From Streptosporangium carneum (GTDB lineage Bacteria > Actinomycetota > Actinomycetes > Streptosporangiales > Streptosporangiaceae), in assembly GCF_027922005.1 (NCBI RefSeq), contig NZ_BSEV01000024.1, forward strand, positions 1-64,000: a stretch of DNA of 64,000 bases, written 5' to 3'. How positions within the stretch are numbered: position 1 is the stretch's first letter; every line of letters begins with the position of its first letter. Below are positions 6,631-30,719 of the stretch, piece by piece. A program made the position numbers and the translations under genes. The notes under the pieces were generated by a model. The model was not told where the DNA came from, ran no database searches, and saw only the letters and a list, made by a program, of their open reading frames with translations.

Positions 6631-9600
6631 TCAGGGGGTCTCCGGAGGGGTGGGGGGCGGCAGGAAGGCGGTCTGGCCCAGGCGGGCGCCGTGCCTTCTG
6701 TCGACGAAGTAGCCCCGGCCCGGCGGGAGCGGGTGCGCGCGGACGTTGCCGAACAGGAAGCCCTCGTCCTTGTTGCCGGACAGGATCACGGCGGGGCTGG
6801 CCATGTCCTTCAGACGCTGGACGATCGGGTCGAACATCGCCCTGCCGATGCCGCCCATCGCGCGGGACATCACCAGGTGCAGTCCGATGTCCCGGGCCTG
6901 GGGGAGCAACTCGGCCAGGGGGAGCAGCGGGTTGGTCGAGGTCGCGACGAGGTCGTAGTCGTCGACGACGATGTACAGGTCGCAGCCCTGCCACCAGCTT
7001 CTCGCCCGCAACTGCTCGGGGGTGAGGTCCGCGGGAGGCAGCCGCTTGAGCAGTGCGTTGCGCGCGTCGTTGATCAGCTCGACGGCGGCGGCGCTGGAGG
7101 CGGCGTAGCCGATGCGGTGCTCGGTGGCGGCGGAGTCCAGCAGCGACCTGCGGTAGTCGATCACGATCATCATGGCCTGCTGAGGCGTCTGCCGGGCGAC
7201 CAGGCCCTCGGTGACCAGGCGCAGCAGGTTGGACTTCCCGCTCTCGGTGTCGCCGACCACGATGAAGTGCGGGTCGGCCTCGAAGTCGAGCAGGACGGGT
7301 GACAGGGCGGCCTCGTCGATGCCGATCGGGATGCGGGTGTGTCCGGTCTGCTCGGGGCCGGGCAGCGTGTGGGCGGCGAGCACCGCGGGCAGCAGCCGTA
7401 CGGCGGGAGCGGGCGGCCCCTGCCAGGCGTCCCTGATCGCGTGGACCAGGGCGCGCACGCCCGCGGCCAGGTCGTCGGCCTTCCTGACGCCGTCGATCCT
7501 GGGCAGCGCGGACAGAAAGTGCAGGCCCTCCTTGGTGAGCCCGCGCCCGGGGACGCCCTCGGGCACGGCCAGCGACGACTTGCGGTTGATCTCGGACTCG
7601 TAGGCGTCGCCGAGCTTGAGCTCGACCCGGGTGCCGAACAGGTCCCGGATGCCGGGACGGAACTCCGACCACTTGTTGGTCGCGGCCACGACGTGGATGC
7701 CGTATCCGAGGCCGCGGGCGGCCAGGTCGGTGATGACGGGTTCGAGCGACTCGAACTCCTGCCTGATCGTCAGCCAGCCGTCGACGACCAGGAAGACGTC
7801 GCCGTAGCCGTCTCCCTTGCCCCCTCCCTCCGCGAGCCGCTGGCGGTACACGGTGATCGAGTCGATGCCCTGCTCGGCGAAGTCGCGTTCCCGCCGCTGG
7901 AGCAGCGCGGCGATCTCGGCGACCGTGCGGCGCACCCGGTCGCCGTCGAGGCGGCTGGCCACCCCGCCCACGTGGGGCAGCGCCTCCAGCGAGGCGAGCG
8001 AGCCGCCGCCGAAGTCCAGGCAGTAGAACTGGACCTCGCGCGGGGTGTGGGTGAGAGCCATGCCGGTGACCAGGGTGCGCAGCACCGTGCTCTTGCCGCT
8101 CTGCGTCCCGCCCGCGACGCCGACGTGGCCCGCGGCTCCCGAGAGGTCCAGCCAGAACGGGTCGCTGCGCTGCTCGAACGGCTTGTCGATGACGCCGACG
8201 ATGGCGTGCAGCCTGCCCCGCCCGGACCAGCCGGTCGTGCTCAGGCCGAGCTCCGGGGTGATCGACAGCGGCGGGAGCAGGTGGGCCAGGGTCGGGGGGT
8301 CTCCCAGCGGCGGCAGCCAGATCCGGTGGGCGGCGGGTCCCTGCCCGGCCAGCCTGCCGACCACCAGGTCGAGCAGGCTCACCGATCCCCGGTCGATGGG
8401 AATCTCGCCCGTCGTCAGCTCCTTCTGGGGCTCCTCGACGACGGGGACCGGAGCGAAACCGGGACCGTACTCCACGATCTGGCCTGCGCCCGCCCTGCCG
8501 CCCCGCGCCGCCGAGCCGAGGGGGTCGACCTGGTGGGCGCCGGAGACGTAGGCGGCCTTGAACCTGGTCATCCCGGTGGTGTCGAACTTCAGGTAGCCGT
8601 TGCCCGGCGCGGAGGGCAGCTCGTAGGCGTCGGCGACGCCGAGCACGACCCGGCTCTCCATCGCGGAGAAGGTGCGCAGGCCGATCCGGTAGGACAGGTG
8701 GGTGTCCAGGCCGCGCAGCCGTCCCTCCTCCAGACGCTGGGAGGCCAGCAGCAGGTGCACGCCCAGGGAGCGGCCGAGCCGTCCGACCATCACGAACAGC
8801 TCGATGAACTCGGGCTTGGCCGTGAGCAGCTCGCTGAACTCGTCGATGACGACGAACAGCGTGGGCATCGGCGTCAGGGCGGCTCCCTGCTCGCGGGCGC
8901 GCTCGTAGTCGCGCAGGGAGGCGTAGTTGCCCGCGGCGCGCAGCAGCTCCTGGCGGCGGATCATCTCGCCGTGCAGCGCGTCGTACATGCGGTCGACGAG
9001 GGGGAGCTCGTCCTCGAGGTTGGTGATGACCGCCGAGACGTGGGAGAGGGTGTCGAGGCCGAGGAAGGTCGCGCCGCCCTTGAAGTCGACGAGGACGAAG
9101 TTCAGGATCTCCGAGGAGTGGGTGATCGCCAGGCCGAGCACGAGCGTCCGCAGCAGTTCGCTCTTGCCCGATCCGGTCGCGCCGATGACCAGGCCGTGCG
9201 GCCCCATGCCGCCCTGCGCCGACTCCTTGATGTCCAGCTCGACCAGCCGCCCGTCGACGCCCAGGCCGATCGGCACCCGCAGCCGGTTGCGCCCCGCCCT
9301 GGGCCGCCACGTCACCGCGGGGTCCAGGAGGGCCGGGTCGCCGACCCCCAGCAGGTCGGTCAGCGAGGTGTTGACCGCCAGCATGTCCTGCGCCTCCCCG
9401 CTCTTGGCGGTCGAGGCGCGCAGCGGGGCGAGCTGCCTCGCCAGCCCCTCGGTCCGCAGGAAGTCCAGCTGGTCGGGGTCTCCGAGGCGGGTCGAGCTCT
9501 GCTTGCCCGCGTGGTCTATCTTGATCATGAAGAAGCCGTCGGCGCGGACGTCGAGGCGCAGGGTGTTCTTCTCCTCGATCGGCCCGGCCGAGCCGGACAG

Positions 9601-10629
9601 GTCGATCACGGTGACGCCCTGGATGGCGTCCATGCCGAGCTGGGAGTCGTGCGGCACGTGCCCGCCGTCGAGGATCAGCACGTGGTACGGCAGCGCGTCG
9701 GCGGACGCGCCCGGCCTGAAGCGGGCCCTGTCCTTCAGCGTCCCGCCGAGCAGTCGGTCGAGCTCGGCCAGGTTCTCGGCCATGAGCCGTACCGGGCCCG
9801 CGGCGTCGGTCTCCTCCGGGTGCAGCGCGTGGGGCAGCCATTTGACCCACTCCCACTGGGCCATCCACTCCTCGCCCGCGCACACCATGATCCGCATGTC
9901 GTCGGGGGAGTGGAAGACGGTCATCTGGGCGAGCATCGCCCGCACCATCTCCCGTACGGCCACCGGGTCGCCGGTCAGGTTGATCCGCGCGAAGGAGTGC
10001 AGGGCGACGGCGACCGGCAGCTCGGACACCGTCGAGTGGGCTCTGACGAACCTGCGCAGCGCGCCCGAGGACAGGGCGTCGAGGTCCTCGACCGGCTTGG
10101 AGTCCGGGGGGATCAGCTGGATGGCGAGCTTCTGCACGCCGGTGCCGAGCCGTACGGTGCCGAAGTCGTCGTCGCGGGCCCGCCGCTCCCACAGGCGCGG
10201 GCCGAGGGCGACCCACCACAGGGAGTCGGGGGCCGGGCTGCTCCACTCGAGGGCCTCGCGCTGTTGCGCGGCGGCCCGCCGCACCTTCCTGCGGACCTGG
10301 GCGAGGTAGCGGAAGTAGTCCCTGCGCAGACCGTTCAACCGTTGTTTCCGCTCCCCGGCCTGGCGGCCGAGCTGGCCCGCCGTCATGCCCATCATGGAGA
10401 TCGCGAACAGGCCGCTCGCCACGTACATGATCGGGCTCGAGTTGCCGCCCGCGGTGAACATCAGGCCCATCGCGGCGGCCCCGGCGACCATCGGCAGGTA
10501 GGTGAGCATGCCGGTCAGCCCCTGCGGCTGGATCTCGGGAATCTCCGGAGGAGACTCGAGCAGAATCTCTCCCCGGGGAGGCTTGGGCGGGGGACGGCGC
10601 TCGGGGCGCCGTACGACGACGATGCTCAC
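6631..10629 (-). CDS. eccC: Type VII secretion ATPase EccC (fused EccCa-EccCb)
   Basis: EccC is the motor of ESX/type VII secretion: it binds the C-terminal signals of WXG100-type substrates and drives export at the inner membrane. This 1332-residue protein has two membrane segments near the N terminus (about residues 40-85), a linker domain, and three FtsK/SpoIIIE-type ATPase domains. The Walker A motifs are GATGSGKS (483-490), GGTQSGKST (840-848) and GDTESGKSN (1126-1134). A full Walker B, LFVVIDEF, is seen in the first domain, and VVDGW and VVDDYD stand at the matching places of the second and third. The single-chain form is the rule outside a few mycobacterial systems. The start is GTG at 10629. 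The gene is divergent from eccD across 168 bp. Confidence 0.97.
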   Translation of the reverse strand: MSIVVVRRPERRPPPKPPRGEILLESPPEIPEIQPQGLTGMLTYLPMVAGAAAMGLMFTAGGNSSPIMYVASGLFAISMMGMTAGQLGRQAGERKQRLNGLRRDYFRYLAQVRRKVRRAAAQQREALEWSSPAPDSLWWVALGPRLWERRARDDDFGTVRLGTGVQKLAIQLIPPDSKPVEDLDALSSGALRRFVRAHSTVSELPVAVALHSFARINLTGDPVAVREMVRAMLAQMTVFHSPDDMRIMVCAGEEWMAQWEWVKWLPHALHPEETDAAGPVRLMAENLAELDRLLGGTLKDRARFRPGASADALPYHVLILDGGHVPHDSQLGMDAIQGVTVIDLSGSAGPIEEKNTLRLDVRADGFFMIKIDHAGKQSSTRLGDPDQLDFLRTEGLARQLAPLRASTAKSGEAQDMLAVNTSLTDLLGVGDPALLDPAVTWRPRAGRNRLRVPIGLGVDGRLVELDIKESAQGGMGPHGLVIGATGSGKSELLRTLVLGLAITHSSEILNFVLVDFKGGATFLGLDTLSHVSAVITNLEDELPLVDRMYDALHGEMIRRQELLRAAGNYASLRDYERAREQGAALTPMPTLFVVIDEFSELLTAKPEFIELFVMVGRLGRSLGVHLLLASQRLEEGRLRGLDTHLSYRIGLRTFSAMESRVVLGVADAYELPSAPGNGYLKFDTTGMTRFKAAYVSGAHQVDPLGSAARGGRAGAGQIVEYGPGFAPVPVVEEPQKELTTGEIPIDRGSVSLLDLVVGRLAGQGPAAHRIWLPPLGDPPTLAHLLPPLSITPELGLSTTGWSGRGRLHAIVGVIDKPFEQRSDPFWLDLSGAAGHVGVAGGTQSGKSTVLRTLVTGMALTHTPREVQFYCLDFGGGSLASLEALPHVGGVASRLDGDRVRRTVAEIAALLQRRERDFAEQGIDSITVYRQRLAEGGGKGDGYGDVFLVVDGWLTIRQEFESLEPVITDLAARGLGYGIHVVAATNKWSEFRPGIRDLFGTRVELKLGDAYESEINRKSSLAVPEGVPGRGLTKEGLHFLSALPRIDGVRKADDLAAGVRALVHAIRDAWQGPPAPAVRLLPAVLAAHTLPGPEQTGHTRIPIGIDEAALSPVLLDFEADPHFIVVGDTESGKSNLLRLVTEGLVARQTPQQAMMIVIDYRRSLLDSAATEHRIGYAASSAAAVELINDARNALLKRLPPADLTPEQLRARSWWQGCDLYIVVDDYDLVATSTNPLLPLAELLPQARDIGLHLVMSRAMGGIGRAMFDPIVQRLKDMASPAVILSGNKDEGFLFGNVRAHPLPPGRGYFVDRRHGARLGQTAFLPPPTPPETP

Positions 10630-10797: not shown

Positions 10798-12249
10798 ATG
10801 AGGTCGCTGGCTCAACCGCCCGCTCAGGGGTCCGTCGTCGCCCAGGGGCTCCCTGCCCAGACCGCAGCACCGCTGCCTCCGCTGTGCCACGTCACGATCG
10901 TCGCACCCCGCAGGAAGGCCGACCTCGCGCTGCCCGCGGACATCCCGCTGCCCCATATCCTGCCCAACCTGCTGCGCGCGATGGGCGAGGTGGGAGGCGA
11001 GTCGGCGGCCGCGCCGGGCTGGGTGCTCCAGCGACCCGGCGGCGTCCCGCTCGACATCGGCCAGAGCCTGGGCGCTCTCGAGGTGCTCGACGGAGAGGTG
11101 CTCTACCTGCGGCCCCGTGAGGCCGTGCTGCCCCCGGCCATGTTCGACGACGTGGCCGACGTCGTCGCCACCGGCTTCAAGGATGGGCCCGCCAAGTGGG
11201 GCGCGGGGCACACCCGCGTGGTCGGGGTCTCCGCCGCGACCGGCCTCCTCGTCACGGGGGCGGTGATCCTGCTGCTCGCCGGGCCGCCGTGGCGGGTCGC
11301 CGCCGTGTTCGCCGGGGTGTTCGCCGTCCTGCTGACCGTCGCGGGCGGCGTGCTGTCCAGGGCGGTCGGCGACTCGTCGGCGGGCGCGCTGATCGGCTAC
11401 GCGGCGCTGCCGTACGGCTTCCTCGCGGGACTCCTCGCGCCCGCGGGCGCCACGGGTCTGGGCGGTCTCGGCTCGGCGCACATGCTCGCCGCGTTCGCGA
11501 CCACGGGACTGGTCGCCACCGTCTGCGCGCTGGCGGTCGCCGACGGCCTGCCCGCCTTCCTCGGCGTCGCCATCGCCTCCGCGTCCGGCGCGGTCGGCGC
11601 GGCCGCCGTGCTGCTCACCTCGGCCTCCCCCGCCGGGGTCGCCGCGGTCGTCGTCGCGGTCCTGCTGGCGTGCGGCCCGCTGTTCCCGATGCTGGCCTTC
11701 AGGTTCGCGGGCCTGCCGATGCCCACGATGCCCACGAACTCGGAGGAGCTGCGGGGCGACAACCAGCGGATCGACGGCCCGTCCATCCTGGAGCGCACCC
11801 GCCTCGCGCAGCGTTACGCGACCGGGTTCGTCGCGGGGGTCGGCCTGGTCGCGCTGGCGGCCCAGCTCTACCTCGCGTTCGACGCCGGCTGGGTCGCCAC
11901 GGCCACCGCGCTGACGCTGTCGCTGACGCTCGCCCTGCGGGCCCGCGTCTTCCAGGGGACGGGCCAGCGGCTCTGGCTGCTGGTCTCCGCCCTCGTCGGG
12001 CTCGCCGTGCTGGCGATCTCGCGGACGCTGACCGCGGGCGGGGGCGGGGCGGCGCTCACGGTGGCGATGGGCCTGCTGTGCGTCGCGGTGGTCCCGGCGG
12101 GCATGGGCCTGTGGCTGCCGTCCGGCAGGCCGTCGCCGTTCTGGGGCCGGGCCGCCGACATCGTCGAGGTCATGCTGATCGTCGCGCTCTTCCCCCTCGC
12201 CCTCGGCGTGCTCGACGTCTACTCCTGGGTCAGAGGCCTGGCCGGTTAG
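10798..12249 (+). CDS. eccD: Type VII secretion integral membrane protein EccD
   Basis: EccD forms the membrane pore scaffold of type VII secretion with EccB and EccC. The 483-residue protein has the expected layout. An N-terminal ubiquitin-like domain spans about residues 28-110, starting CHVTIVAPRRKADLALPADI and ending EVLYLRPRE. It is followed by about eleven hydrophobic helices from residue 140 to the C terminus, interrupted by one hydrophilic loop (about 305-340) carrying NSEELRGDNQRID. Length and layout fit the family. It is the first gene of the rightward group. A YbaB-like gene follows after 69 bp containing a hairpin repeat. Confidence 0.95.
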   Translation: MRSLAQPPAQGSVVAQGLPAQTAAPLPPLCHVTIVAPRRKADLALPADIPLPHILPNLLRAMGEVGGESAAAPGWVLQRPGGVPLDIGQSLGALEVLDGEVLYLRPREAVLPPAMFDDVADVVATGFKDGPAKWGAGHTRVVGVSAATGLLVTGAVILLLAGPPWRVAAVFAGVFAVLLTVAGGVLSRAVGDSSAGALIGYAALPYGFLAGLLAPAGATGLGGLGSAHMLAAFATTGLVATVCALAVADGLPAFLGVAIASASGAVGAAAVLLTSASPAGVAAVVVAVLLACGPLFPMLAFRFAGLPMPTMPTNSEELRGDNQRIDGPSILERTRLAQRYATGFVAGVGLVALAAQLYLAFDAGWVATATALTLSLTLALRARVFQGTGQRLWLLVSALVGLAVLAISRTLTAGGGGAALTVAMGLLCVAVVPAGMGLWLPSGRPSPFWGRAADIVEVMLIVALFPLALGVLDVYSWVRGLAG

Positions 12250-12318: not shown

Positions 12319-12759
12319 ATGGATTTCGGAGACTTCGCCAACATAGACATTGAAAAGCTGCTCAGCGGAAACAGTTCACAATTCATGAAAATGGAGGAGC
12401 TGCAGAAGGACCTCTCCACGCTGGTCGGGCGCGCCCAGGACGAGGACGGCCTGGTCGCCGTCGAGTACGCCGCGGAGGGGTTGCGCGAGCTCGACCTGCA
12501 CCCCAAGGCGATGCGGCTGAGCTCGGGCGAGCTGGCGGAGAGGATCAAGCTGGTCGTCCACCAGGCGGCCGAGGATCTGCGGGAGCAGGTCGAGGCGGCC
12601 ATGGGCAGGGCCTTCGGGGAGGAGAACAACCCGATGAAGCTGCTCGGCGACCCCGAGGCGGTCCTGGGGCGGGTCAGGGAGGCGGAGGTCACCTACAACC
12701 GCACGTTCGAGGACGTGATGGGCGAGCTCGACCGCATCCGCCGCCGCCTCGAACTGTGA
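12319..12759 (+). CDS. YbaB/EbfC-like protein (EspL-like position)
   Basis: This 146-residue protein has the YbaB/EbfC fold signature in its middle: GLVAVEYAAEGLRELDLHP followed by a long helix pair LAERIKLVVHQAAEDLREQV. Classical YbaB proteins are small nucleoid-associated dimers. In mycobacterial ESX-1 a YbaB-like protein, EspL, stabilises secreted Esp proteins, so a chaperone-like role is plausible here. It carries an extra N-terminal helix (residues 1-35) and a C-terminal coiled tail. RBS CAGGGAGCGG precedes the ATG. Two further YbaB-like genes occur in this locus (23732 and 25500). Confidence 0.75.
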   Translation: MDFGDFANIDIEKLLSGNSSQFMKMEELQKDLSTLVGRAQDEDGLVAVEYAAEGLRELDLHPKAMRLSSGELAERIKLVVHQAAEDLREQVEAAMGRAFGEENNPMKLLGDPEAVLGRVREAEVTYNRTFEDVMGELDRIRRRLEL

Positions 12760-13103: not shown

Positions 13104-13430
13104 GTGGCGGAGTTTTTCGGTGCGAGTCCCGCACAGATCAAGAAGGCGTCCGAGCTCGTCGTGGACACCGCGCAGTACGTCGAAGGCCTGCGCAAGAGCG
13201 TCGAGTCGAAGACCGTCGAGCTGACGGCCTCAGGCTGGCTGGGGGCCGCGTCCGCCAAGTTCCTGGCCGCGATGCGCAAGTGGGACGAGCAGATGATGAT
13301 CGTCCGGGGCGACCTGGAGACGATCGCCCGCAACCTGGGTGACAGCTCCATCACCTACGACGCGGCCGACCAGGACGTGCAGGCCGGAATGGGGCGCGTC
13401 GACGCGCTCATCAACACCGGCGTGAAGTGA
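13104..13430 (+). CDS. WXG100 family secreted protein (EsxA/EsxB type)
   Basis: The 108-residue product is a short helical-hairpin protein of the WXG100 family, exported as a dimer by the EccC machine. The turn motif reads SGWLGAAS (W-L-G) near residue 48, between two long amphipathic helices. The tail DVQAGMGRVDALINTGVK is polar. The GTG start at 13104 has a good ribosome site, GGAGGT, at 13093-13098. The gene is followed after 34 bp by a second WXG100 gene. The pair is the usual EsxB/EsxA-like heterodimer, but which is which cannot be told from sequence alone. Confidence 0.93.
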   Translation: MAEFFGASPAQIKKASELVVDTAQYVEGLRKSVESKTVELTASGWLGAASAKFLAAMRKWDEQMMIVRGDLETIARNLGDSSITYDAADQDVQAGMGRVDALINTGVK

Positions 13431-13464: not shown

Positions 13465-13764
13465 GTGTCCGACTACACGAAGGTCAACTTCGTCGAGATG
13501 GAGAACGTCGAGCTCGGCCTTCTCCAGGTCGTCACGGCCATGGACAAGGCCACCGACGACCTCATCGTCAAGCTCCAGCAGGTGCTGGGCGAGCACTGGG
13601 CGGGCGACGCGGCGAACTTCTTCGAGGAGCACAGGAAGATCTGGGACGCCGCCGAACAGGAGATGGGACGCCAGCTCGGCGAGGCCGCCAAGGCCCTGGG
13701 CGTCGCCAACGAGAACTACAAGGCGGCGGAGGCCCGTAACAAGGCCATCTGGAGCAACCACTGA
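13465..13764 (+). CDS. WXG100 family secreted protein (partner)
   Basis: This 99-residue WXG100 protein has the motif EHWAGDA (W-A-G) near residue 46 between two helices, the second ending ANENYKAAEARNKAIWSNH. It starts with GTG at 13465. Together with the preceding gene it makes the canonical pair of substrates or co-substrates of the type VII system. The C terminus has Y-K-A-A-E, which agrees with the Y-x-x-x-D/E export signal described for ESX substrates. Confidence 0.93.
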   Translation: MSDYTKVNFVEMENVELGLLQVVTAMDKATDDLIVKLQQVLGEHWAGDAANFFEEHRKIWDAAEQEMGRQLGEAAKALGVANENYKAAEARNKAIWSNH

Positions 13765-16098: not shown

Positions 16099-16112
16099 GG
16101 AGAGAGACCACC

Positions 16113-17399
16113 ATGGCGGACACGGGCTCGACCCCGCTCAAGTACTCCAACGGCGCCCCGCAGGAGATGCCGCTCCCGATCACCCTCTTCGACAGCGTCA
16201 TGGACAAGGTCAGGGACTGGGTCGACAACACCAGCCCGGGCGCGGTGAAACGGGCGGGCGACTACTACGTCGCCGCGCACGACCTGCTCCAGGACGCCGC
16301 GGTGACCCTCAAGCAGAAAGCCGTCGAACTGGCCGCGCAGTACCAGGGCCCCGAGAGCGTGGCCGCGCAGAAGGAACTGCAGCGACTGCACGCCAGCATC
16401 CGCGAGCTCGCGGGCAAGATGAACGAGGTGGGCGTCCCGCTGCGGAAGTACGCCGAGACGCTCACCTGGGCCCAGCAGAACATCGTCACCAAACGAGGCG
16501 AGGACTCGCGCTCCGACCACGACACCGACTGGGCGGACAACATCCCGTTCTACGGCATGTACCGCGTCGAACGCAGGGCCAGGGACCGGTTCAACGAGAT
16601 CAACGAGAAGATCGTCCAGCACTACCAGGAGCTTCCCTCGGAGGTGCAGCACTCGCTGCCGACCCCGATGCAGATCGAGATTCCCGACTACCGGAACGTG
16701 GACCTCCCCTCAGGGCCCGGCGGCCTGCCCGGTGGGACCGGCGGCGACGCTTTCACCCCCACGCGCCTGGACGTCAACGGCCCCGGAGCGAACGACCTGG
16801 GACTGAACGGCCTCGACCCGGACGGCTTCGACCCGAACGGCGCCGGACCGGGCGTCATCGGCGGCCTCCCGTCCGATCCGACGGGAACCGGCCAGAACGG
16901 CTCAGGCCAGGGCGGCTGGAACCCGAACGGCTCCGGAGCGAACGGCCTGCCCGGCGGCCTCGGCCCGAACAGCGTCGACGGCTCCCTGCCAGGCCTCGAC
17001 GCCACCGCGCTGTCCGGCCCCGGCTCCGGCGAGACCGTCCTCGCGGGTCTGAACGACCACGGGCTGACCGGCCCGCAGAACGGCCTGGGCAACGGTCCCT
17101 CGTTCGGCAACACCCTGAACGGAAACCCGCTGAACGGCTCCGGCGTCGGGCCGCCGAACGGCACGGGCCAGGGCGGCCTCGGGCCGGTCTCCGGCGTCTT
17201 CGGCCCCGGCGGCGGCCCGGGCAAGGGGCTCGGCGCGGGCCAGGTCAGAGCGGGCGGCTCCCCGATGATGCCGTTCGTGCCGCCGGGCGGCGGGGCAGGC
17301 GCGAAGGAGAACCAGGACCGCGAGAACAGCACCTGGCTCATGGAGGACGACGAGGTCTGGGGCAACGGCGGCGACACGATCCCCCCGGTGATCGCCTGA
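16113..17399 (+). CDS. Long low-complexity type VII substrate with PPVI tail (2 of 3)
   Basis: The 428-residue product has a helical N-terminal region (about 35-190, with QYQGPESVAAQKELQRLHAS at the place of a WXG turn). A long Gly/Asn/Pro linker rich in NG steps (about 200-385) follows, and then the shared tail: GGSPMMPFVPPGGGAGA and NSTWLMEDDEVWGNGGDTIPPVI. The NG-rich linker is reminiscent in style of mycobacterial PE/PPE linkers but is not homologous as far as can be judged. The ATG at 16113 has a GAGGAGAGAG ribosome site. It is part of the same operon as the flanking genes. Confidence 0.8.
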   Translation: MADTGSTPLKYSNGAPQEMPLPITLFDSVMDKVRDWVDNTSPGAVKRAGDYYVAAHDLLQDAAVTLKQKAVELAAQYQGPESVAAQKELQRLHASIRELAGKMNEVGVPLRKYAETLTWAQQNIVTKRGEDSRSDHDTDWADNIPFYGMYRVERRARDRFNEINEKIVQHYQELPSEVQHSLPTPMQIEIPDYRNVDLPSGPGGLPGGTGGDAFTPTRLDVNGPGANDLGLNGLDPDGFDPNGAGPGVIGGLPSDPTGTGQNGSGQGGWNPNGSGANGLPGGLGPNSVDGSLPGLDATALSGPGSGETVLAGLNDHGLTGPQNGLGNGPSFGNTLNGNPLNGSGVGPPNGTGQGGLGPVSGVFGPGGGPGKGLGAGQVRAGGSPMMPFVPPGGGAGAKENQDRENSTWLMEDDEVWGNGGDTIPPVIA

Positions 17400-17464: not shown

Positions 17465-18535
17465 ATGGCCGAAACGCCCTTCAACGGGCTCACGCTCGGG
17501 GGGACCGGGCCCGCCAGGGTCGTCTCCTTCACGAAGGACAAGCTGGAACAGCTCGGCACCGACTTCGGCGGCCGCGCCAACGACGTCGACGCCCTCGTGC
17601 GCCACACGGGCTCGATCGGCATCGACCCGCCCGCCTTCGGCGTGCTCGGGATCGGGCTGAACTCGGCCCACGACCAGGCCCGTGACAACGCCGTGAACGC
17701 CCTCAAGGCGGGCAAGGCGGTGATCGAGTCGTGGAACAAGGCGCTCAAGGACGCGGACGCGAACTACCAGGCCGCGGAGGGGAAGAGCACGGACGACGGC
17801 GGTGGCGGCAACCCGTGGGACGGCGGCGGCCTGGGCGGTGGTCTGGGCGGCGGTGGTCTGGGCGGTGGCGGTCTGGGTGGCGGAGGCCTCGACCTGCCCA
17901 AGCCGGACGACCTGAACGGCTCCGACCTCTCAGGGGGGGACGACCTCGATCTCGACGGGACCGGGCCGAAGTACCCCGACCCGAACGACCTCGACGGGAC
18001 CGGGCCGAAGTACCCCGACCCGAACGACCTCGACTCCGACGGGACCGGGCCGAAATTCCCCGACCCCAACGCGCTCGACCCCGGCGGGACCGGTTCGAAC
18101 CTGACCGACCCGAAGTTGCCGGACCCGAACGCGCTCGACCCGAACAGCGTCGCGAACAACCTCGCCAAGACGGGCCTCGGCCTGGACGACCCCACGCGGA
18201 CAGCCCTGTCGGGCTACGACCCGAACCAGGTGACGGCGCAGCCGAGGCTGCCCGACAGCACCACGTGGACGGGAGACTCGCAGGGGCCGGGCTCGACCCG
18301 GGGCGGGTTCTCCGGCGGAGTCAGCGGCGGCGGGGCCGTCCCGCTCGGCGGCCTGCGCGGCACGGGCGTCGGCGCGGGGGGAACGGGCGGCGTGCCGATG
18401 ATGCCGATGATGCCCCCGGGCGGCGCGGGCGGCGACCAGGAGAAGGAACGCGAGAAGACCACCTGGATGTCGGAGGACGAGGGGGTCTGGGGCGGCGACG
18501 AGGACATCGCGCCCCCGGTGATCGGCCAGGACTGA
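17465..18535 (+). CDS. EspC-like domain fused to low-complexity region and PPVI tail (3 of 3)
   Basis: The first 100 residues of this 356-residue protein look like the EspC-type (DUF2580) domain: SFTKDKLEQLGTDF, then an Asp/Pro turn and AVIESWNKALKDADANYQAAE. This part resembles the stand-alone small proteins at 22601 and 25042. A Gly run and tandem units of the type DGTGPKYPDPNDL (four copies, two of them identical at DNA level, about 17955-18110) follow. The C terminus again carries the shared tail: PMMPMMPPGGAGG, then TTWMSEDEGVWGGDEDIAPPVI. The ATG at 17465 follows GAGGAGTGAGG. It is probably a type VII substrate. The role of the exported part is unknown. Confidence 0.8.
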   Translation: MAETPFNGLTLGGTGPARVVSFTKDKLEQLGTDFGGRANDVDALVRHTGSIGIDPPAFGVLGIGLNSAHDQARDNAVNALKAGKAVIESWNKALKDADANYQAAEGKSTDDGGGGNPWDGGGLGGGLGGGGLGGGGLGGGGLDLPKPDDLNGSDLSGGDDLDLDGTGPKYPDPNDLDGTGPKYPDPNDLDSDGTGPKFPDPNALDPGGTGSNLTDPKLPDPNALDPNSVANNLAKTGLGLDDPTRTALSGYDPNQVTAQPRLPDSTTWTGDSQGPGSTRGGFSGGVSGGGAVPLGGLRGTGVGAGGTGGVPMMPMMPPGGAGGDQEKEREKTTWMSEDEGVWGGDEDIAPPVIGQD

Positions 18536-18616: not shown

Positions 18617-19390
18617 ATGGCCTATGAGGGAGACAGGGCGGGCTACGTGCAGATGCTCGCGGCGGCGACCGTCGCCGCGGGCATCCTCAGACGCCCCTCG
18701 GCCTTCGCCCTGGTCGCGTCACTCGGCGTGCTGATCTCCAACCCCGGTGACATGTCGAAGGCGGCGGGGGAGTGGCGTGATCCGAAGCTCTCCGGCGGGG
18801 CCGACCTCGACGCGATCAAAGAACAGCTGATCACCCTGAAGGGGCGGATCAAGAACGACGGGCACTGGGAGGGGGACGCCTACAACGTCTTCAGCACCGC
18901 CGTCGACGACTTCGCCGTCCAGTTGGACAACGCCAAGAGATACCGCCAGGGCGCGGGCGACACCCTCGACCAGACCGCGTCCCTCTACCACGCGACCTTC
19001 GAGGTCGTCCGGCTGATTGTCTACTGCATGGGGATCATCGCCGCGGTGTACATCGCGAGCAAGCTCTACCCCCCGTGGGGGGCGGCCGTCGAGCTGTGGG
19101 TCACCGGCGTCCTCGAGAAGCTCGACGGCATCGTCAAGGCGATCATCAGCAGGAAGCTGAAGGCCGTCGGGGCGGTCGGGATCCTGCTGTGGATGCTCAA
19201 CGGGTTCCAGAAGGACCAGGAGAGGCTGTTCTGGGGCATGCAGGCCCTGCCGCAGCAGGAGACGGACTTCACCCAGGTCAGCCTGCAGTACGACAAGAAC
19301 GGAGGGCTCGTCCAGAAACCCGACACCTCCGCTTTCAACGTCCCGAACATGAAAGGCAGCTCGTTCATACCGGGCATTCCTGGCCTCTGA
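18617..19390 (+). CDS. Membrane-anchored WXG-like protein (family of three in this locus)
   Basis: This 257-residue protein has a hydrophobic segment near the N terminus (about 12-45), a helical-hairpin region with GHWEGDA (W-E-G) near residue 82, two closely spaced hydrophobic helices (about 132-175), and a polar C terminus. The region NPGDMSKAAGEW aligns with NVPGMGDAYNNW (protein at 22920) and NTPGMNDAKAGW (24257), and all three share the same helix and membrane order. A WXG-like domain held in the membrane suggests a component that touches the secretion apparatus, or a substrate that inserts into membranes. Neither is established. The ATG at 18617 follows GAAAGGTG. Confidence 0.75.
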   Translation: MAYEGDRAGYVQMLAAATVAAGILRRPSAFALVASLGVLISNPGDMSKAAGEWRDPKLSGGADLDAIKEQLITLKGRIKNDGHWEGDAYNVFSTAVDDFAVQLDNAKRYRQGAGDTLDQTASLYHATFEVVRLIVYCMGIIAAVYIASKLYPPWGAAVELWVTGVLEKLDGIVKAIISRKLKAVGAVGILLWMLNGFQKDQERLFWGMQALPQQETDFTQVSLQYDKNGGLVQKPDTSAFNVPNMKGSSFIPGIPGL

Positions 19391-19804: not shown

Positions 19805-20020
19805 ATGGCCGCAGACAACAGTGTGACGTCCGCGCAGTGGCCGGCGAAGCAGATCGAGGCCGGCGACCCGGATCTGTTGCGATCCATGGTGAAGACCATG
19901 GCCGAGGCGTTGATGTCGGCCGAGGCCAACGGCCTGTGCGGCGCCGGCTACGGCGAACGGACCGACGAGCGCACCAACCGGCGCAACGGCTACCGCAGCC
20001 GCGACTGGGACACCCGCGCC
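19805..20020 (+). pseudogene. Truncated IS256 (mutator) family transposase
   Basis: Seventy-two residues match the N terminus of IS256-type transposases: LLRSMVKTMAEALMSAEANG, LCGAGYGERTDERTNRRNGY and the following RSRDWDTRA. In intact members the sequence continues with the block that begins the catalytic domain (typically GTIELAIPKLR). Here homology stops abruptly after DTRA, and a different gene begins within 20 bp. The DDE catalytic part (normally more than 300 further residues) is absent, so the element is dead. Confidence 0.85.
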
Positions 20021-20039
20021 CACCGCATAGGAGAGACCC

Positions 20040-20952: not shown

Positions 20953-22398
20953 TCACTGCTGCTGCGGTCTGAGGGTCTGGCCGGTCTGGGCGGGCTTCCT
21001 GGCCGCCGCCGGGTCGAGCGCCGAGCCTTCGGGGATCAGGTGCACGAGGTGCGCGGGCAGCGGGGCGACGTCCTGCATGGTGTACCCCAGGCTCGACAGC
21101 GCCTCCTGGGAGGGGATGACGTGCCTGCGGCCCTGGTCGCCGACCAGGTAGAGCGACTGGAGCGCGTCCAGCCTGCCGTTGCCCGGCAGCAGCCCTATCA
21201 GAGCGCCCTTGCCGTACGGGAGCACGACCTGGTCGACCACGTCCTGGTTGAACCAGCCCTGCGGCGGTGCGGGGATCGCCACCGTGCTGCCGACCGTCAG
21301 CAGCGCCTTGGACGAGCCGCGCTCGGTTTCCGGGTAGACGGCGCAGACCGGGTGAGCGGGAGGCGGGGTGACGATCTGCGGCATGGTCTGCGGGAGGTCG
21401 CCGCCGCCCATGCGGGTCGCGGACCGCCTGGCTCCGGTGGCGGTCGCCGGGTCCAGTTCGACCGCTTTCACCGGGGATCGGCCGTACGCCTTCTTGGTCG
21501 CCGGGTTCTGCAGCAGCAGGGCGGCCTGTGCCGGGGTGAGGGGCGCCAGGCCGTCGGACAGCAGGACGTACCACTTCGCGGAGCCGCCGGCGACCGGCGG
21601 GACGGTGAACACCCTGCCGACCGTGGACTTCCCGCCGTCGGGCCCGCGCGTCTCACGGCCGAGGCCGGGAACCGAGGGGCCGCGGAAGTCGGGTCCGGCG
21701 GGCAGCGCGTTGAGCCAGGCCAGCGGGACCTGGCGGGGCCGTTCCTCCGTCAGCGCCCGCACCCCCTCCGCCGAGATCCGCATCCGCTGGTTCGACCAGA
21801 GCAGCCAGGCCTGCCCGTTCTCCTCGACGAGCATGGCCTTGTCCTGCCCGATCTGGCCGCCGCCGACGTTGAAGCCTCCGACCAGCGAGGTGTACGGCCT
21901 GCGCTCGCCGTTGGCGTCGACCCCCTCGACCACGCAGGCCGACCAGGGGGAGCGCACCAGACGGTCGGGGGCGGGCGGCGACTCGGGAGCGCCGGGGATG
22001 CCGACCAGCGTGCCCCGGGCGTACCGGGAGAGGGAGGCCGCGCTGACCACGCGCACCTTCACCTCCTGCTCTCCGACCAGCAGCCTGGCGGAGGCCATGT
22101 TGACGACCGGGATCATCTTGGCCTGAGGGGCGCTGTAGACGAAGGTCGCGCCCGTCTCCTCCTCCACGATCACGGTGCCCGGGTCGGTGAGGGCGGTGGC
22201 GTTGCCGGGGCGCAGCAGGCCGATCACGCCGAAGGTGGCCGCGACCAGCACCGCGACCAGCACCCCGCCGAACATCGCGATGTTGTGCCTGCGCATCGGC
22301 GACTCCGGCAGGTCCGGCTCGCCCTGGAGCAGGGCTGTGCCCAGACGCTGGGTCATCAGCTTGTAGGCCTGGTGGAGATCCCGCCGGGTCTGCATCAC
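20953..22398 (-). CDS. eccB: Type VII secretion protein EccB
   Basis: EccB is the bitopic membrane component that forms the external ring of the type VII membrane complex. The 481-residue product starts MMQTRRDLHQAYKLMTQRLG, a conserved cytoplasmic start. It has one membrane helix at about 38-62 (HNIAMFGGVLVAVLVAATFG) and a large external domain made of the repeated beta units of the family, with a Cys pair (WSACVVEG and HPVCAVYPE). Length is normal for the family. The gene is on the minus strand, divergent from the small EspC-like gene at 22601, and is separated from eccCD by substrate genes and the mobile remnant. Confidence 0.95.
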   Translation of the reverse strand: MMQTRRDLHQAYKLMTQRLGTALLQGEPDLPESPMRRHNIAMFGGVLVAVLVAATFGVIGLLRPGNATALTDPGTVIVEEETGATFVYSAPQAKMIPVVNMASARLLVGEQEVKVRVVSAASLSRYARGTLVGIPGAPESPPAPDRLVRSPWSACVVEGVDANGERRPYTSLVGGFNVGGGQIGQDKAMLVEENGQAWLLWSNQRMRISAEGVRALTEERPRQVPLAWLNALPAGPDFRGPSVPGLGRETRGPDGGKSTVGRVFTVPPVAGGSAKWYVLLSDGLAPLTPAQAALLLQNPATKKAYGRSPVKAVELDPATATGARRSATRMGGGDLPQTMPQIVTPPPAHPVCAVYPETERGSSKALLTVGSTVAIPAPPQGWFNQDVVDQVVLPYGKGALIGLLPGNGRLDALQSLYLVGDQGRRHVIPSQEALSSLGYTMQDVAPLPAHLVHLIPEGSALDPAAARKPAQTGQTLRPQQQ

Positions 22399-22600: not shown

Positions 22601-22903
22601 GTGACGCAGGACAGGTACGTCACGTCCACGGCGATTCAGTCGATCCGCACCGAGCTCGACGACGACGTCATCCCCAAGATCGGTGAGCTGCGCGGGCTGA
22701 TCGACAGCACCGACGTGCCCTTCCCGGGGTGGGGCGGCGTCGGCGAGCTGGCGATCGGCCTGCGCTACCGCCAGGTGCAGGAGGACGCGAGGGAGAAGCT
22801 CAGCCAGGCCCTGGATGTCCTGGAGTCCTGGCAGGAGGCGCTGAACACCGCGGCGGTCAACTGGCGGACCGCCGAGTACAACAGCACCGTCGTCTACCAG
22901 TGA
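22601..22903 (+). CDS. EspC-like small helical protein (cassette A, gene 1)
   Basis: This 100-residue protein starts with GTG at 22601 behind an excellent AAGGAGGT site. It has two helices around an Asp-Val-Pro-Phe-Pro-Gly-Trp turn and ends LESWQEALNTAAVNWRTAEY, which fits the EspC-type (DUF2580) small type VII proteins. It is a paralogue of the protein at 25042: both share YVTSTxI near the start, the D-V-x-F-P-G turn and the N-W-R-x-A-E end. It is the first of three tightly spaced genes (16 bp, then a 1-bp overlap). Confidence 0.75.
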   Translation: MTQDRYVTSTAIQSIRTELDDDVIPKIGELRGLIDSTDVPFPGWGGVGELAIGLRYRQVQEDAREKLSQALDVLESWQEALNTAAVNWRTAEYNSTVVYQ

Positions 22904-22919
22904 TCTGAGAAGACCCGAC

Positions 22920-23732
22920 ATGCCGGTACCTCCGGGCAAGAAGCCCGTTCCCGCGACCGCCCTCAGGAGCGCCAGAGGCGTCGTCGTCAACTCCGCGAAG
23001 GTCATCAGCGGTCTGGAGAAGGGCGCGCGGCTCGCTCCGACCGCGTGGGCGGGGGTGGCGATCGCGGCCACCGCGGTCGCCAACGTGCCGGGGATGGGCG
23101 ACGCCTACAACAACTGGGAGTCGCTCCACTCGCGCCTGGACACCGCGAACAAGAGCTATGTGGCGGCCCTGCTGAACAAGGGGAAGGAGGGGTGGATCGC
23201 CGAGGACCGCGACGCCTTCGACGACGCCGTCCAGCACTACCAGGAGGCGCTGGAGAGCCTGCGCGCCTACATCAAGACGATCGCCGGGATCGTGGACGAG
23301 CTCGGCGACGCCTACCGCGCCTACTGGATCGCCATCGCCAAGGTCGCCGCGACCCTGCTGGCCCTCGCGGCGATCGCCGCCGCCATGCTCGCGACGCCGT
23401 ACGCGGGGTCGGCCGCGCTCAACCTGCGGATGCTCGGCACCATGGCCAGTAAGATCATCGCCGCTTCGACGGCCGCGCTGGGCAAGGTCGTCGCCGCGGG
23501 CGCGAGCAGCATGTCGGTCTACTTCTCCGGCAAGGCGTGGATGCAGTCGTTCAACCTCGCTCCGACCGACAAGGCGAAGATCGACTTCACCAAGGCCACG
23601 ATCGTCACCAGGGGCCTGCCCGCCTTCCAGCAGCCCCCGCCCCAGCAGACCGGGCAGCCGCCCCAGCTCCCGCCGCACGCGGGCTTCCAGTGGCTGTCGC
23701 CGAAAAAGGACCTTCCGGAGCCGTACAAGTGA
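22920..23732 (+). CDS. Membrane-anchored WXG-like protein (cassette A, gene 2)
   Basis: The 270-residue protein has a hydrophobic segment at about 38-57 (APTAWAGVAIAATAVANVPG), a helical hairpin with KEGWIAEDRDAF near residue 98 at the place of the WXG turn, and two hydrophobic helices (about 138-160 and 170-200). The tail ends LSPKKDLPEPYK. The paralogue at 24257 has the same order and the matching tail IAPKREIPAPYDK, so the tail is probably functional. It may be a substrate inserted in a target membrane or an accessory membrane part of the secretion complex. No enzymatic motif is seen. Confidence 0.75.
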   Translation: MPVPPGKKPVPATALRSARGVVVNSAKVISGLEKGARLAPTAWAGVAIAATAVANVPGMGDAYNNWESLHSRLDTANKSYVAALLNKGKEGWIAEDRDAFDDAVQHYQEALESLRAYIKTIAGIVDELGDAYRAYWIAIAKVAATLLALAAIAAAMLATPYAGSAALNLRMLGTMASKIIAASTAALGKVVAAGASSMSVYFSGKAWMQSFNLAPTDKAKIDFTKATIVTRGLPAFQQPPPQQTGQPPQLPPHAGFQWLSPKKDLPEPYK

Positions 23733-24151
23733 TGAACCTCGACCCCGACCACCCGCGCGCGGACGACCCGGAGGAGCTCGCGGAGTTCGTACGGCGCAGC
23801 GACGAGACGCTGCGCAGGCTCGGCGACGCGTTCGGCGAGCTGAACGCCGTCACCGGCGAGGGCTTCGGCGCCGACGGCATGGCGCGGGCGGTGGTGGACT
23901 CCACGGGACGCATCCAGCAGATCACCTTCGATCCCCGTGTGGCGCGCCTGGACACCCGGACGATCGCCGAGGCCGCCACCGAGGCGGTCCGCGCCGCGCA
24001 GGACGACGCCAGGCGGCGGAGCGAGGCGCTGCTCGGCGAGGCGACGGGCGGCGAGCCGCTCACCCTGGACATGGACCGCGCCCGCCGCCAGTTCGAGGAG
24101 ATCGGCGAGGATCTGGCCCGCACGCTGCGGGACCTGGCGGGCGGGCTCTGA
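23732..24151 (+). CDS. YbaB/EbfC-like protein (cassette A, gene 3)
   Basis: The 139-residue product has the YbaB core: GMARAVVDSTGRIQQITFDP, then an Asp-Thr-Arg-Thr step and a long helix EAATEAVRAAQDDARRRSEA. The N-terminal helix EELAEFVRRSDETLRRLGDA is typical of YbaB-like proteins in actinomycete type VII loci. Its ATG overlaps the stop of the preceding gene by one base, so the two are translated together. It is presumably a dedicated partner or chaperone of the membrane protein. DNA binding as in classical YbaB is an alternative. Confidence 0.75.
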   Translation: MNLDPDHPRADDPEELAEFVRRSDETLRRLGDAFGELNAVTGEGFGADGMARAVVDSTGRIQQITFDPRVARLDTRTIAEAATEAVRAAQDDARRRSEALLGEATGGEPLTLDMDRARRQFEEIGEDLARTLRDLAGGL

Positions 24152-24256
24152 CGGGCGGCGGTCTCTGACGGGCGGCGGGGCTGACGGGTACGCCCGCCGC
24201 GGTCCCGGAGAGGGGAGCCTTTCCCCACCGGGTCCGGCGGCGGCCGAGCCCGCCTC

Positions 24257-25045
24257 CTACTTGTCGTAGGGGGCGGGGATCTCGCGCTTGGGGGCGATCC
24301 ACGCCGAGGGCGGCCGCGTGGAGATCGTGACGCTCCTGAAGTCGATCTTCGTGCCCGCCGTCGGCATGATGTTGTTCATGTTGCCCATCGCCCCGATGAG
24401 GGAGACCAGGGCGGAGCCCGACAGGGCCAGGTAGCTGCCGAGCAGCATCGTCATCTTGGCGACGAGGCCGTTGGTGATGGCGCCGAGCCGGTGGAGCTGC
24501 AGCTGCGCCGCGGTGGCCGTCGCGGGGGAGGCGAGGCTCATGCGCCGGGCGGCCAGGGCGTAGAGCAGGACCGTCCCGGAAAGCGTCGCGATGCCCTTCC
24601 AGTAGTCGTAGTAGGCCTGCCGGACCGCGTCCAGCTTGCCCTCCATGGTGTAACAGACGCCGCTGAGCTTCTGCATCTCCCCGCCGAACAGGGCGGTCGC
24701 GTTCAGGAACTCCTCCCGGTCGTCGGCCTGCCAGTCCGCGCGGGACAGGAAGACGGCGTTGCCGATGACGGAGGGATAGGCGACCTCGAGGAGCTTGGCG
24801 AGGGCGTTCCAGCCTGCCTTGGCGTCGTTCATCCCCGGAGTGTTCGCCACGGCGGTGCCCGCGATGGCCACCGCGGTCAGCAGCCCGGGGATCAGTTTGG
24901 AACTGGCCTTGAGCGTGTCGAGGGCCTGCTTCGAGGCGGCCGTCAACTCGGCCCTGGCGGCGGCGGTCTTCGCCGCCTCGGCGGCTCTGGCCGCCTGCGC
25001 GGCCTGCCTGCGCGCGTGGACCAGGCTCACCGGTTTCGGCGTCAT
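24257..25045 (-). CDS. Membrane-anchored WXG-like protein (cassette B, gene 2)
   Basis: The 262-residue product starts with an Ala-rich coiled stretch (RRQAAQAARAAEAAKTAAAR). It continues with a hydrophobic segment ending TAVANTPGMNDAKAGW, a hairpin with RADWQADDREEF (a W-x-x-D-D turn as in the paralogue at 22920), two hydrophobic helices, and the tail PSAWIAPKREIPAPYDK. It is homologous over its whole length to the protein at 22920. Its ATG overlaps the stop of the upstream gene by 4 bp (ATGA at 25042-25045), so translation is coupled. It converges on the YbaB-like gene of cassette A across 105 bp. Confidence 0.75.
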   Translation of the reverse strand: MTPKPVSLVHARRQAAQAARAAEAAKTAAARAELTAASKQALDTLKASSKLIPGLLTAVAIAGTAVANTPGMNDAKAGWNALAKLLEVAYPSVIGNAVFLSRADWQADDREEFLNATALFGGEMQKLSGVCYTMEGKLDAVRQAYYDYWKGIATLSGTVLLYALAARRMSLASPATATAAQLQLHRLGAITNGLVAKMTMLLGSYLALSGSALVSLIGAMGNMNNIMPTAGTKIDFRSVTISTRPPSAWIAPKREIPAPYDK

Positions 25046-25341
25046 GAGTACTTGACCTTGCTCGCCTCTTCGGCGTCTCTCCAGTTCTTCTTGACGGTCT
25101 CCAGCGCGTCGACCCAGGCCGCGAGGGCGGCCACGGCGTCGTCGACGAGCTTCTTGACGTCGTCCTGGGTGCTCGAGTACTTGGCGGCGAAGGGCAGGCC
25201 GAGCGCGCCGAACCCGGGGAAGCCGACGTCGGTCGCGTCGACCTTCGTCTTGAGGTCCTTGAACTGAGGTATCGCCTGTTCGTTGAGGTTGCGCTGGATG
25301 TTGGCGATACAGGTGGAAGTGACGTACTTGTTCTGGGTCAT
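25042..25341 (-). CDS. EspC-like small helical protein (cassette B, gene 1)
   Basis: This 99-residue paralogue of the protein at 22601 reads MTQNKYVTSTCIANIQRNLN, then the DATDVGFPGFGALG turn and the end AWVDALETVKKNWRDAEEAS. It is the first gene of the second cassette and is coupled to the membrane protein gene. The ATG at 25341 is chosen by alignment to the paralogue; the frame is open to 25383. As with cassette A, no signal peptide or membrane helix is present. Confidence 0.7.
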   Translation of the reverse strand: MTQNKYVTSTCIANIQRNLNEQAIPQFKDLKTKVDATDVGFPGFGALGLPFAAKYSSTQDDVKKLVDDAVAALAAWVDALETVKKNWRDAEEASKVKYS

Positions 25342-25499
25342 GTGCCGACGTGCCCCCGTCCGGTACATCCGTCGTTCATTCATCGGTCCCCCGTAAGGGG
25401 AGCGGCGTTTATGTGATCTTTACAGTATCTTGTGTTTTTTCCTGTGTCAGGAGTGACTTGGGTTATCTGCGGTCACTCAATGTCAGAAGGGGGCGTGTG

Positions 25500-25901
25500 G
25501 TGTTCGACTCCACCGGCTTCGAGCTGGAAGACCTGGAACGCGTCGGCCGGGACGCCGAGAACGAGATACGGCGCCTCGCCGAGATAGAGGCCGAGCTCGG
25601 TGACGTGCGCGGCACGGGGACGGGGGCCGACGGGCTCATCACCGTGACCGTCGACGGCTCGGGCAGGGTGGAGGGGATCGACCTCAACCCCCGCGTCATG
25701 CGCCTGGACAGTCACACCCTGGCGGCCGAGCTCATGAAGGCGATCGGGAAGGCGGGGGAGGACGGGGAGCGCAGGGTCCGCGAGATCCTCGAAGACGCCG
25801 GGCTCTCCGCGGCCCCGCCGGACCTCGACGAGGCGCGGGAGCAGATGACGGTGGCCTACGAGTCCTTCGCCCGCGCCGTCGACGGCCTCTCCGGACGCTG
25901 A
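25500..25901 (+). CDS. YbaB/EbfC-like protein (cassette B, gene 3, divergent)
   Basis: The 133-residue protein has the YbaB core: GLITVTVDGSGRVEGIDLNP, then MRLDSHTLAAELMKAIGKAG. Its nearest visible relative is the YbaB-like protein at 23732. The GTG at 25500 is preferred because GAAGGGGG stands 6 bp in front; a GTG one codon earlier is also possible. Here the YbaB-like gene is divergent from the other two cassette genes instead of following them. An AT-rich stretch (25415-25450) between the two starts probably holds both promoters. Confidence 0.75.
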   Translation: MFDSTGFELEDLERVGRDAENEIRRLAEIEAELGDVRGTGTGADGLITVTVDGSGRVEGIDLNPRVMRLDSHTLAAELMKAIGKAGEDGERRVREILEDAGLSAAPPDLDEAREQMTVAYESFARAVDGLSGR

Positions 25902-29462: not shown

Positions 29463-30719
29463 TCACGGCTTGTTATCCGAAACGCCGGGCCGCCAGCCCC
29501 TGCGACGCCCCATCGGGACGGTGAACCTGCCGAGAACGACCAGGACGGCCGCGGCGAGACAGAGCAGGGCGACCCACAGCGCGATCGAGACGCTCAGGCC
29601 GTCGGCGACGGGCGTGTGCCGTATCGCGTCCCGGGGCAGCGGGACGGGCTCCTGCGGCGCGAGCGCCACCTCGTCGGAGGCCGTGATCGACGAGACCGCC
29701 ATCAGGGGGTTGACCATGCCCGAGCCGGTCCCGGCCCCCGAACCGCCGTCCGCGGTCCGCGCGATGCGCCAGCGCACCTGGTCCTTGTTCAGCTCGGGGT
29801 GACGGGCGCGGACCAGCGCGGCGACCCCCGCCACGTACGCGGAGGAGAAGCTGGTGCCCTTCTCGTCCTCCACGTAGGTCCGCCCGGGCCAGGTGCTGGT
29901 GATGTCCTGGCCGGGAGCGAGCACCGTGACGGGGGTCGTGGTGTTCGAGTAGTCGGTCCTCGCCCCGTCGCGACCGGCGGCGCCGACCGAGATGACCCCG
30001 GGGTAGGCGGCCGGATACGCGGGCGCGGGAGTGCCGTCCTCCTTCTGCACGTTGCCCGCGGCGGCGACCACGACCACGTCCTTGGCCAGCGCGTAGGCGA
30101 CCGCGTTCCGCAGGTCGGGCTGGTCGCTCGCCTGGACCGAGACGTTGATCACGTCGGCGCCGAGCTGGGCGGCCTTGACGATGCCCAGGGCCAGCCTGCC
30201 CAGGTCCCCTCTGCCGTCCGCGGTCTGCTTGATCGAGATCAGCCTGGCCTCGGGCGCGACCCCGGCGAAGGGCACCCCCTTGAGCCTGACTCCTCCGATG
30301 ATGCCCGCGACCGCGGTGCCGTGGCCGACGCAGTCGGCGGTGCCGGTGTCGGTGAGGTCGATCGCGGTGACCCGGGTCAGCTGGGGGTGCGCGGTGTCCA
30401 CGCCGCTGTCGACGATCGCGACGGTCACCCCCGCGCCCCTGGTCAGCCGCCACACCTCGGACAGGCTGAGCCGCCGCTGCGCCCACGGCTCCCCGATGCT
30501 CGTGGTGCCGCGCCCGGGGGAGCAGGGGACGGGCTCCCGCGCGCGTCCCTGGATCCGCGCGGCGGCGGGAACCGTCGCCGTGGTCGCCGCCGCGGCAGGG
30601 ACGGAGGCCAGGACGGTGGCGGGGACGCTGACAGGGGCGCTGACAGGGGCGGTGGCGGGGAGCGGAGCCGTGACCGCCGCTAGCACTGACACCGCGGCGA
30701 GCGCTCGAACGATCACCAT
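29463..30719 (-). CDS. mycP: Type VII secretion-associated serine protease mycosin
   Basis: Mycosin is a subtilisin-family protease anchored on the outer face of the membrane that stabilises and regulates the type VII complex. The 418-residue protein has a signal region (1-45), then the catalytic triad Asp104 (VAIVDSGVD), His133 (CVGHGTAVAG) and Ser290 (GTSFSSAYVAG). The oxyanion Asn sits in AAAGNV, and a membrane helix lies near the C terminus (SIALWVALLCLAAAVLVVLG). All catalytic residues are present. It is on the minus strand, upstream of the pseudokinase gene with about 100 bp between, and closes the type VII locus. Confidence 0.95.
   Translation of the reverse strand: MVIVRALAAVSVLAAVTAPLPATAPVSAPVSVPATVLASVPAAAATTATVPAAARIQGRAREPVPCSPGRGTTSIGEPWAQRRLSLSEVWRLTRGAGVTVAIVDSGVDTAHPQLTRVTAIDLTDTGTADCVGHGTAVAGIIGGVRLKGVPFAGVAPEARLISIKQTADGRGDLGRLALGIVKAAQLGADVINVSVQASDQPDLRNAVAYALAKDVVVVAAAGNVQKEDGTPAPAYPAAYPGVISVGAAGRDGARTDYSNTTTPVTVLAPGQDITSTWPGRTYVEDEKGTSFSSAYVAGVAALVRARHPELNKDQVRWRIARTADGGSGAGTGSGMVNPLMAVSSITASDEVALAPQEPVPLPRDAIRHTPVADGLSVSIALWVALLCLAAAVLVVLGRFTVPMGRRRGWRPGVSDNKP

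Follow-up and report, generated by a model that had tools for sequence, protein, structure and literature searches.

Two paralogous gene cassettes in a Streptosporangium carneum type VII locus: candidate substrate pairs with putative dedicated YbaB-family chaperones

Two paralogous three-gene cassettes

We analysed a 64,000-nucleotide stretch of the 9.84 Mb Streptosporangium carneum genome (assembly GCF_027922005.1, contig NZ_BSEV01000024.1, positions 1 to 64,000; hereafter the window, GC content 0.67-0.75) that carries a type VII secretion locus with two cassettes of three genes each. Each cassette encodes a small protein (C), a larger protein with hydrophobic stretches (A) and a YbaB-like protein (Y) (Table 1). 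C1-A1-Y1 run in line on the forward strand (22601-24151); C2-A2 lie on the other strand with Y2 divergent, as an initial annotation of this DNA had described. Its description of tight overlaps held for A1 and Y1, which share one base (TGATG), but not for C1 and A1, which lie 16 nucleotides apart. C2 and A2 overlap by ATGA. The listed open reading frame of C2 extends up to 25383, and the alignment favours the ATG at 25341 as the likely start. No promoter-like sites turned up in the region; terminator-like sites numbered three, where 1.4 would be expected.

The six genes are present and paralogous at all three positions. Local alignment against 200 shuffles gave scores of 204 for C1/C2 (z 42), 298 for A1/A2 (z 36) and 194 for Y1/Y2 (z 24), all far over the best shuffle, and the motifs quoted in the initial annotation were confirmed in the alignments. 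A search of the own genome with A1 returned A2 (E 9e-25) and a third relative in the same locus, A3 (E 0.007); its two remaining, weaker hits (E 0.25 and 0.77) lie on other contigs.

By profile match the Y proteins are members of the YbaB family (PF02575), in line with the initial annotation: Y1, Y2 and a third locus protein, Y3, scored 35.2, 42.3 and 30.1 bits at a curated cut-off of 25.5. The genome holds six YbaB-family matches, three of them in this locus. Two YbaB-family genes stand in tandem outside the locus (G000:C1:655838-656494), on a contig where the A1 search found no match.

Table 1 Features of the window. Motif rows are parts of the A and C genes.
Feature	Position	Strand	Evidence
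C1: 100-aa (amino acid) Esx/PE/EspC-like helical hairpin, proposed as the partner protein in cassette 1	22601..22903	+	C2 paralogue; predicted model
A1: 270-aa WXG/PPE-like helical protein, hydrophobic helices, PKKDLPEPY tail	22920..23732	+	alignment, model
Y1: YbaB-like, proposed dedicated chaperone of A1/C1	23732..24151	+	PF02575, E 1.5e-8, over cut-off
A2: A1 paralogue, 262 aa	24257..25045	-	alignment; own-genome search
C2: C1 paralogue, ATGA overlap with A2	25042..25341	-	alignment
Y2: YbaB-like, divergent from C2-A2	25500..25901	+	PF02575, E 8.7e-11, over cut-off
WIAED: WxAxD turn of A1 at the WXG place	23193..23207	+	profile aligned to WEG of 4lws_A
WQADD: WxAxD turn of A2	24719..24733	-	sequence, alignment
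WRTAE: WxxAE element of C1 at the YxxxD/E place	22862..22876	+	alignment A4
WRDAE: WxxAE element of C2	25069..25083	-	sequence, alignment
Y3: third YbaB-like protein, adjoins EccD	12319..12759	+	PF02575, E 5.7e-7, over cut-off
C3: diverged C relative, long Gly/Pro tail, YQAAE	17465..18535	+	C profile, E 8e-9
A3: diverged A relative, WEG	18617..19390	+	A profile, E 2e-5
EccC-type FtsK/SpoIIIE ATPase	6631..10629	-	PF01580, three stretches; name EccC from locus context
EccD	10798..12249	+	PF19053, PF08817
EccB	20953..22398	-	PF05108
MycP-like subtilase	29463..30719	-	PF00082; name MycP from locus context
EsxA-like WXG100 protein, WLG	13104..13430	+	PF06013, E 1.4e-12
EsxB-like WXG100 protein, WAG and YKAAE	13465..13764	+	PF06013, E 2.4e-5, 24.9 bits (cut-off 27.3); alignment A6

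Conservation and co-evolution of the cassette genes

The nearest named relatives of A1 belong to Streptosporangium (S. subroseum, 81%). Relatives were found in 23 of 120 family genomes, own genome counted (E 1e-3; sample selected by overall similarity to A1), and profile matches in 7 of 394 class genomes (E 1e-6) all came from the own genome, genus or family. A scan of named genomes with the pattern [GDE]W[IQ]A[DEA]D[RQH]xA[FY] gave 25 loci, thus selected for the A motif and possibly missing others, in Streptosporangium, Sphaerisporangium, Thermocatellispora, Microtetraspora, Nonomuraea, Planomonospora, Actinomadura (one locus being [Actinomadura] parvosata) and two metagenome bins. With non-iterated A and C profiles and a Y profile from a separate set, 24 of the 25 had C ahead of A on one strand and Y adjoining the pair; in the exception, L084, the stretch starts 73 bases before A. 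Broader profiles applied to 27 genome stretches (the G070 place left out) and the window returned 58 A rows, which include WXG100 and PPE-like relatives because the iterative A profile drifted. Away from stretch ends, C was upstream in 33 of 37 rows, 29 of which also had Y inside 2.5 kb; near ends, C was found in 14 of 21 and Y too in 4 of those. The two samples overlap and were both chosen via A, so these counts describe co-occurrence given A.

The three genes also share a history. Trees of 28 cassettes (omitting L084 and L085 as well as additional pairs in L061-L065, L068, L070, L075, L076 and L078) each recovered one and the same group of 11 type-1 cassettes (A 99/98, C 96/98, Y 94/89). A group of 10 type-2 cassettes was likewise common to the A (100/100) and Y (100/98) trees; the C tree does not resolve this group. 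Pairwise distances were correlated within type 1 (A-C 0.88, A-Y 0.78, C-Y 0.70) and type 2 (A-C 0.91, A-Y 0.84, C-Y 0.87), values reached in no more than 1 of 5000 permutations, although shared species history contributes. Conserved co-occurrence, matching tree groups and correlated distances thus bear out the earlier suggestion that the three genes are kept as one unit. Because all three trees recover the type-1 group and those of A and Y also the type-2 group, the duplication is old and not local. A recent tandem duplication was ruled out, as the window cassettes, 34-40% identical, fall in groups common to other genera.

Within the 120 family genomes, EccB was present in 22 of 23 A-positive genomes compared to 32 of the 97 others (Fisher p 2e-8, only a guide since the genomes are related). 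The EccB-less exception, G070, has an A match of 57 residues (E 1.6e-4). EccB/C/D or MycP matches were absent from the examined flanks, some of them short, of 7 of 10 type-2 cassettes, and in the one-contig genome G100, ~3.46 Mb separate one cassette from the sole EccB match. For these two reasons we call the cassette portable.

Y3, C3 and A3 had been overlooked in the initial annotation, as had the occurrence of both cassette types in other genera. Aligned with the cassette proteins, they gave z 7.5 to 12 in five of six pairings, and A2/A3 fell short of z 4. All three cluster with one Sphaerisporangium cassette in their respective trees. We dropped them as a third cassette and do not claim them as a set because Y3 is distant from C3/A3 in the window and four of five pairs with WxG and YxxxD/E have no Y inside 2.5 kb. 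Profile searches found no C-A pair beside Y3 in the window. Elsewhere, a further C-A pair (L034:13678-14750) with WQNMG and neither WxxxE nor YxxxE adjoins a YbaB gene, lies close to EccD and is perhaps a decaying set.

Predicted folds and motifs of A and C

Weak but concordant evidence places A with WXG/PPE-like and C with Esx/PE-like proteins. The C1 model predicts two helices (7-35 and 45-94, pLDDT 86). The A model aligns with PE-PPE entries (PPE41, PPE4 and PPE15; chain identity from titles and lengths) across 152-161 residues. The Foldseek list for A was headed by unrelated helical proteins. With E values up to 1 allowed, a Pfam PPE match appeared in 10 of 30 A members (lowest E 2e-4), A1 not among them; neither A1 nor A2 matched PF00823 (PPE) at E 0.1. 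NCBIfam returned nothing for A or C, and when solved structures were searched with the C sequence, only thymidylate synthase came up (E 0.95). The initial annotation had called A a membrane protein. A1 does have hydrophobic stretches, one of 19 residues with mean hydropathy 2.24, but its model resembles PPE proteins too and the label is unproven.

Canonical type VII motifs are altered on both proteins. The W-x-G turn of WXG100 (PF06013) is replaced by WIA in A1 and WQA in A2, and in place of YxxxD/E near the C-terminal end, C1 and C2 carry WRTAE and WRDAE. All 29 C rows of alignment A4, whose loci were chosen via A, have the W, A and E of WxxAE. The near-invariance of WxAxD in alignment A3 is partly by construction because the scan used this motif as its pattern, and the motif alignment of 19 rows was hand-picked. 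The EsxB-like neighbours (alignment A6) mostly have Y at the corresponding position and E four residues further.

A wider set of 48 pairs was assembled without pattern selection. The A side was WxA in 28, WxG in 15 and other in 5; the C side was W...[DE] in 32, Y...[DE] in 7 and other in 9. Both changes occurred together in 26 pairs. In these counts the coupling is strong: WxA pairs had WxxxE in 26 cases and YxxxE in 2, WxG pairs had WxxxE in 3, YxxxD/E in 5 and other motifs in 7, and the remaining pairs had WxxxE in 3 and other motifs in 2, one C being counted twice. Exceptions exist, and relatedness alone may explain the coupling. A composite signal has probably been kept despite the W at the Y position and the A at the G position.

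A proposed substrate pair with its own chaperone

We propose, with a probability of about 0.7, that each cassette encodes a type VII substrate pair (A and C) with its own dedicated YbaB chaperone (Y), by analogy with mycobacterial ESX-1. C, an Esx/PE-like hairpin, and A, with its hydrophobic helices, would come together in the cytosol as a bundle of antiparallel helices. Y would keep the two soluble and stable until EccC is met, a role modelled on those proposed for EspH with EspE and EspD with EspA/EspC. A composite export signal, made up of the WxAxD turn in A and, next to it, the WxxAE end in C, would replace WXG and YxxxD/E, and the pair would leave via the EccB/C/D machine. The two cassettes would then be two pairs, chaperoned separately. 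The data themselves establish that the paralogues are homologous, that the genes form a conserved, co-evolving unit, that Y belongs to the YbaB family and that the motifs are present; the folds are predicted, and pairing, chaperoning, secretion and any role of the exported pair outside the cell are inferred.

The initial annotation could not match the cassettes to a described ESX component set. Such sets do exist: EspD stabilises EspA/EspC, and the espE, espF and espH genes are paralogues of espA-espC-espD (PMC6107294, PMC6319747). Like the cassettes, these sets comprise a larger WxG-type substrate, a small EspC-type partner and a YbaB-like proposed chaperone, and occur as two paralogous sets in which the pair genes and the YbaB-like gene are kept together. 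They may also lie far from the machine, as espACD does (>260 kb; PMC6107294) and as does the G100 cassette. The match is one of architecture and expected mechanism, not of family membership, and the Esp sets entered it through descriptions and Pfam profiles. Searched up to E 10 in the own genome, PF18879 (EspA_EspE) had no match at the cassettes and only two below threshold, each on a different contig from the locus, and it was absent among the 25 families listed, perhaps not exhaustively, for 30 A members. PF10824 (EspC) matched neither C1 nor C2 in the same search, reached 16.9 bits in C3 (cut-off 23.5) and matched 1 of 29 C members (E 0.12). Unlike in espA-espC-espD, the small gene comes first, and the cassettes also differ in their WxAxD/WxxAE signal, their host organisms and their stand-alone copies.

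Other type VII pairs share some of these traits. As in PE/PPE pairs, where pe genes precede ppe genes, C precedes A; unlike them, the cassettes have a YbaB-like protein in place of EspG. With EsxA/EsxB (WXG100) they share the predicted helical hairpin, the W at the turn and an acidic C-terminal motif, and they differ in both motif substitutions and in the extra hydrophobic helices and tail of A. In type VII pairs the two partners are described as assembling into a four-helix bundle, one of them carrying YxxxD/E (PMC9765416). One published account regards EspH-like proteins as unique to ESX-1 (PMC6107294). A full-text search, with most subscription papers outside its reach, returned no description of such cassettes in these organisms by title or abstract start. 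The substrate-pair and YbaB architecture is already described for ESX-1; what differs here is the organisms, the stand-alone copies, the families and the altered bipartite signal.

We weighed three other explanations. Y1 and Y2 could bind DNA and regulate the C-A genes next to them, the classical YbaB/EbfC role. PF02575 is named as a DNA-binding family, and a divergent Y2/C2-A2 layout, found in 9 of 10 type-2 cassettes (exception L081), would fit. However, Y lies in line downstream of A in 11 of 11 type-1 cassettes, within each type its variation tracks that of A and C, and the genome's best YbaB match (E 6e-26) far outscores the three locus copies. The EspH authors weighed a transcriptional effect and propose a dedicated chaperone (PMC6107294). 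Together these points make a regulatory role unlikely. Slightly less probable still is that A and C are fixed accessory parts of the secretion machine or envelope, that is, membrane subunits and not cargo. The hydrophobic stretch of A1 and the position of cassette 1 beside EccB suit this explanation, yet most type-2 cassettes lack Ecc or MycP matches in their examined flanks, PPE-type cargo has a hydrophobic region too (PMC9765416), and the machine occurs without the cassette, given EccB in 32 of the 97 A-less genomes. That A is a polymorphic LXG/WXG-type toxin, for which C and Y would provide chaperone or immunity functions, is very improbable: the Foldseek list does contain a TelA-LXG complex (rank 37, E 1.0), but the short Pro-rich tail in which A ends past its helical part is conserved, not polymorphic, and a Pfam scan covering 30 members shows no prominent match to a catalytic domain.

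The proposed substrate pairs sit in a locus with further genes of interest. The S. roseum cluster is listed under ESX-4, and such species are without mycolic acids (PMC4791881); the ESX-4 label for the window machine comes from this listing and not from tree-based ESX typing. Three long Gly/Pro-rich proteins (14299-15588, 15864-17399 and 17465-18535, the last being C3) have the C-terminal block TW.xEDxxVW...PPVI in common, align with one another at z 14 to 28 over shuffles and, from sequence, resemble a family of substrates that share a tail. An N-terminal fragment of a Mutator-family transposase (19805-20038; PF00872, 3.7e-13) lies within the locus, followed by an RNase_T exonuclease family gene. 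A protein-kinase-like protein (27117-29360; PF00069) with a long Pro/Thr-rich linker adjoins the MycP-like gene and has relatives in several cassette loci.

More tentatively, and with the odds somewhat against it, the cassettes could represent a distinct Streptosporangiaceae substrate class, with the signal changed on both partners (WXG to WxAxD, YxxxE to WxxAE), an own YbaB chaperone and portable cassettes serving an ESX-4-type machine in or outside its locus. We do not rate this higher because the named-genome scan selected for the A motif. If true, YbaB-chaperoned substrate pairs would not be limited to ESX-1. Cassettes of this kind in environmental actinomycetes would make harmless organisms available for studying the working of such chaperones, and natural signal variants on both partners would provide a means to test how the export signal is read.

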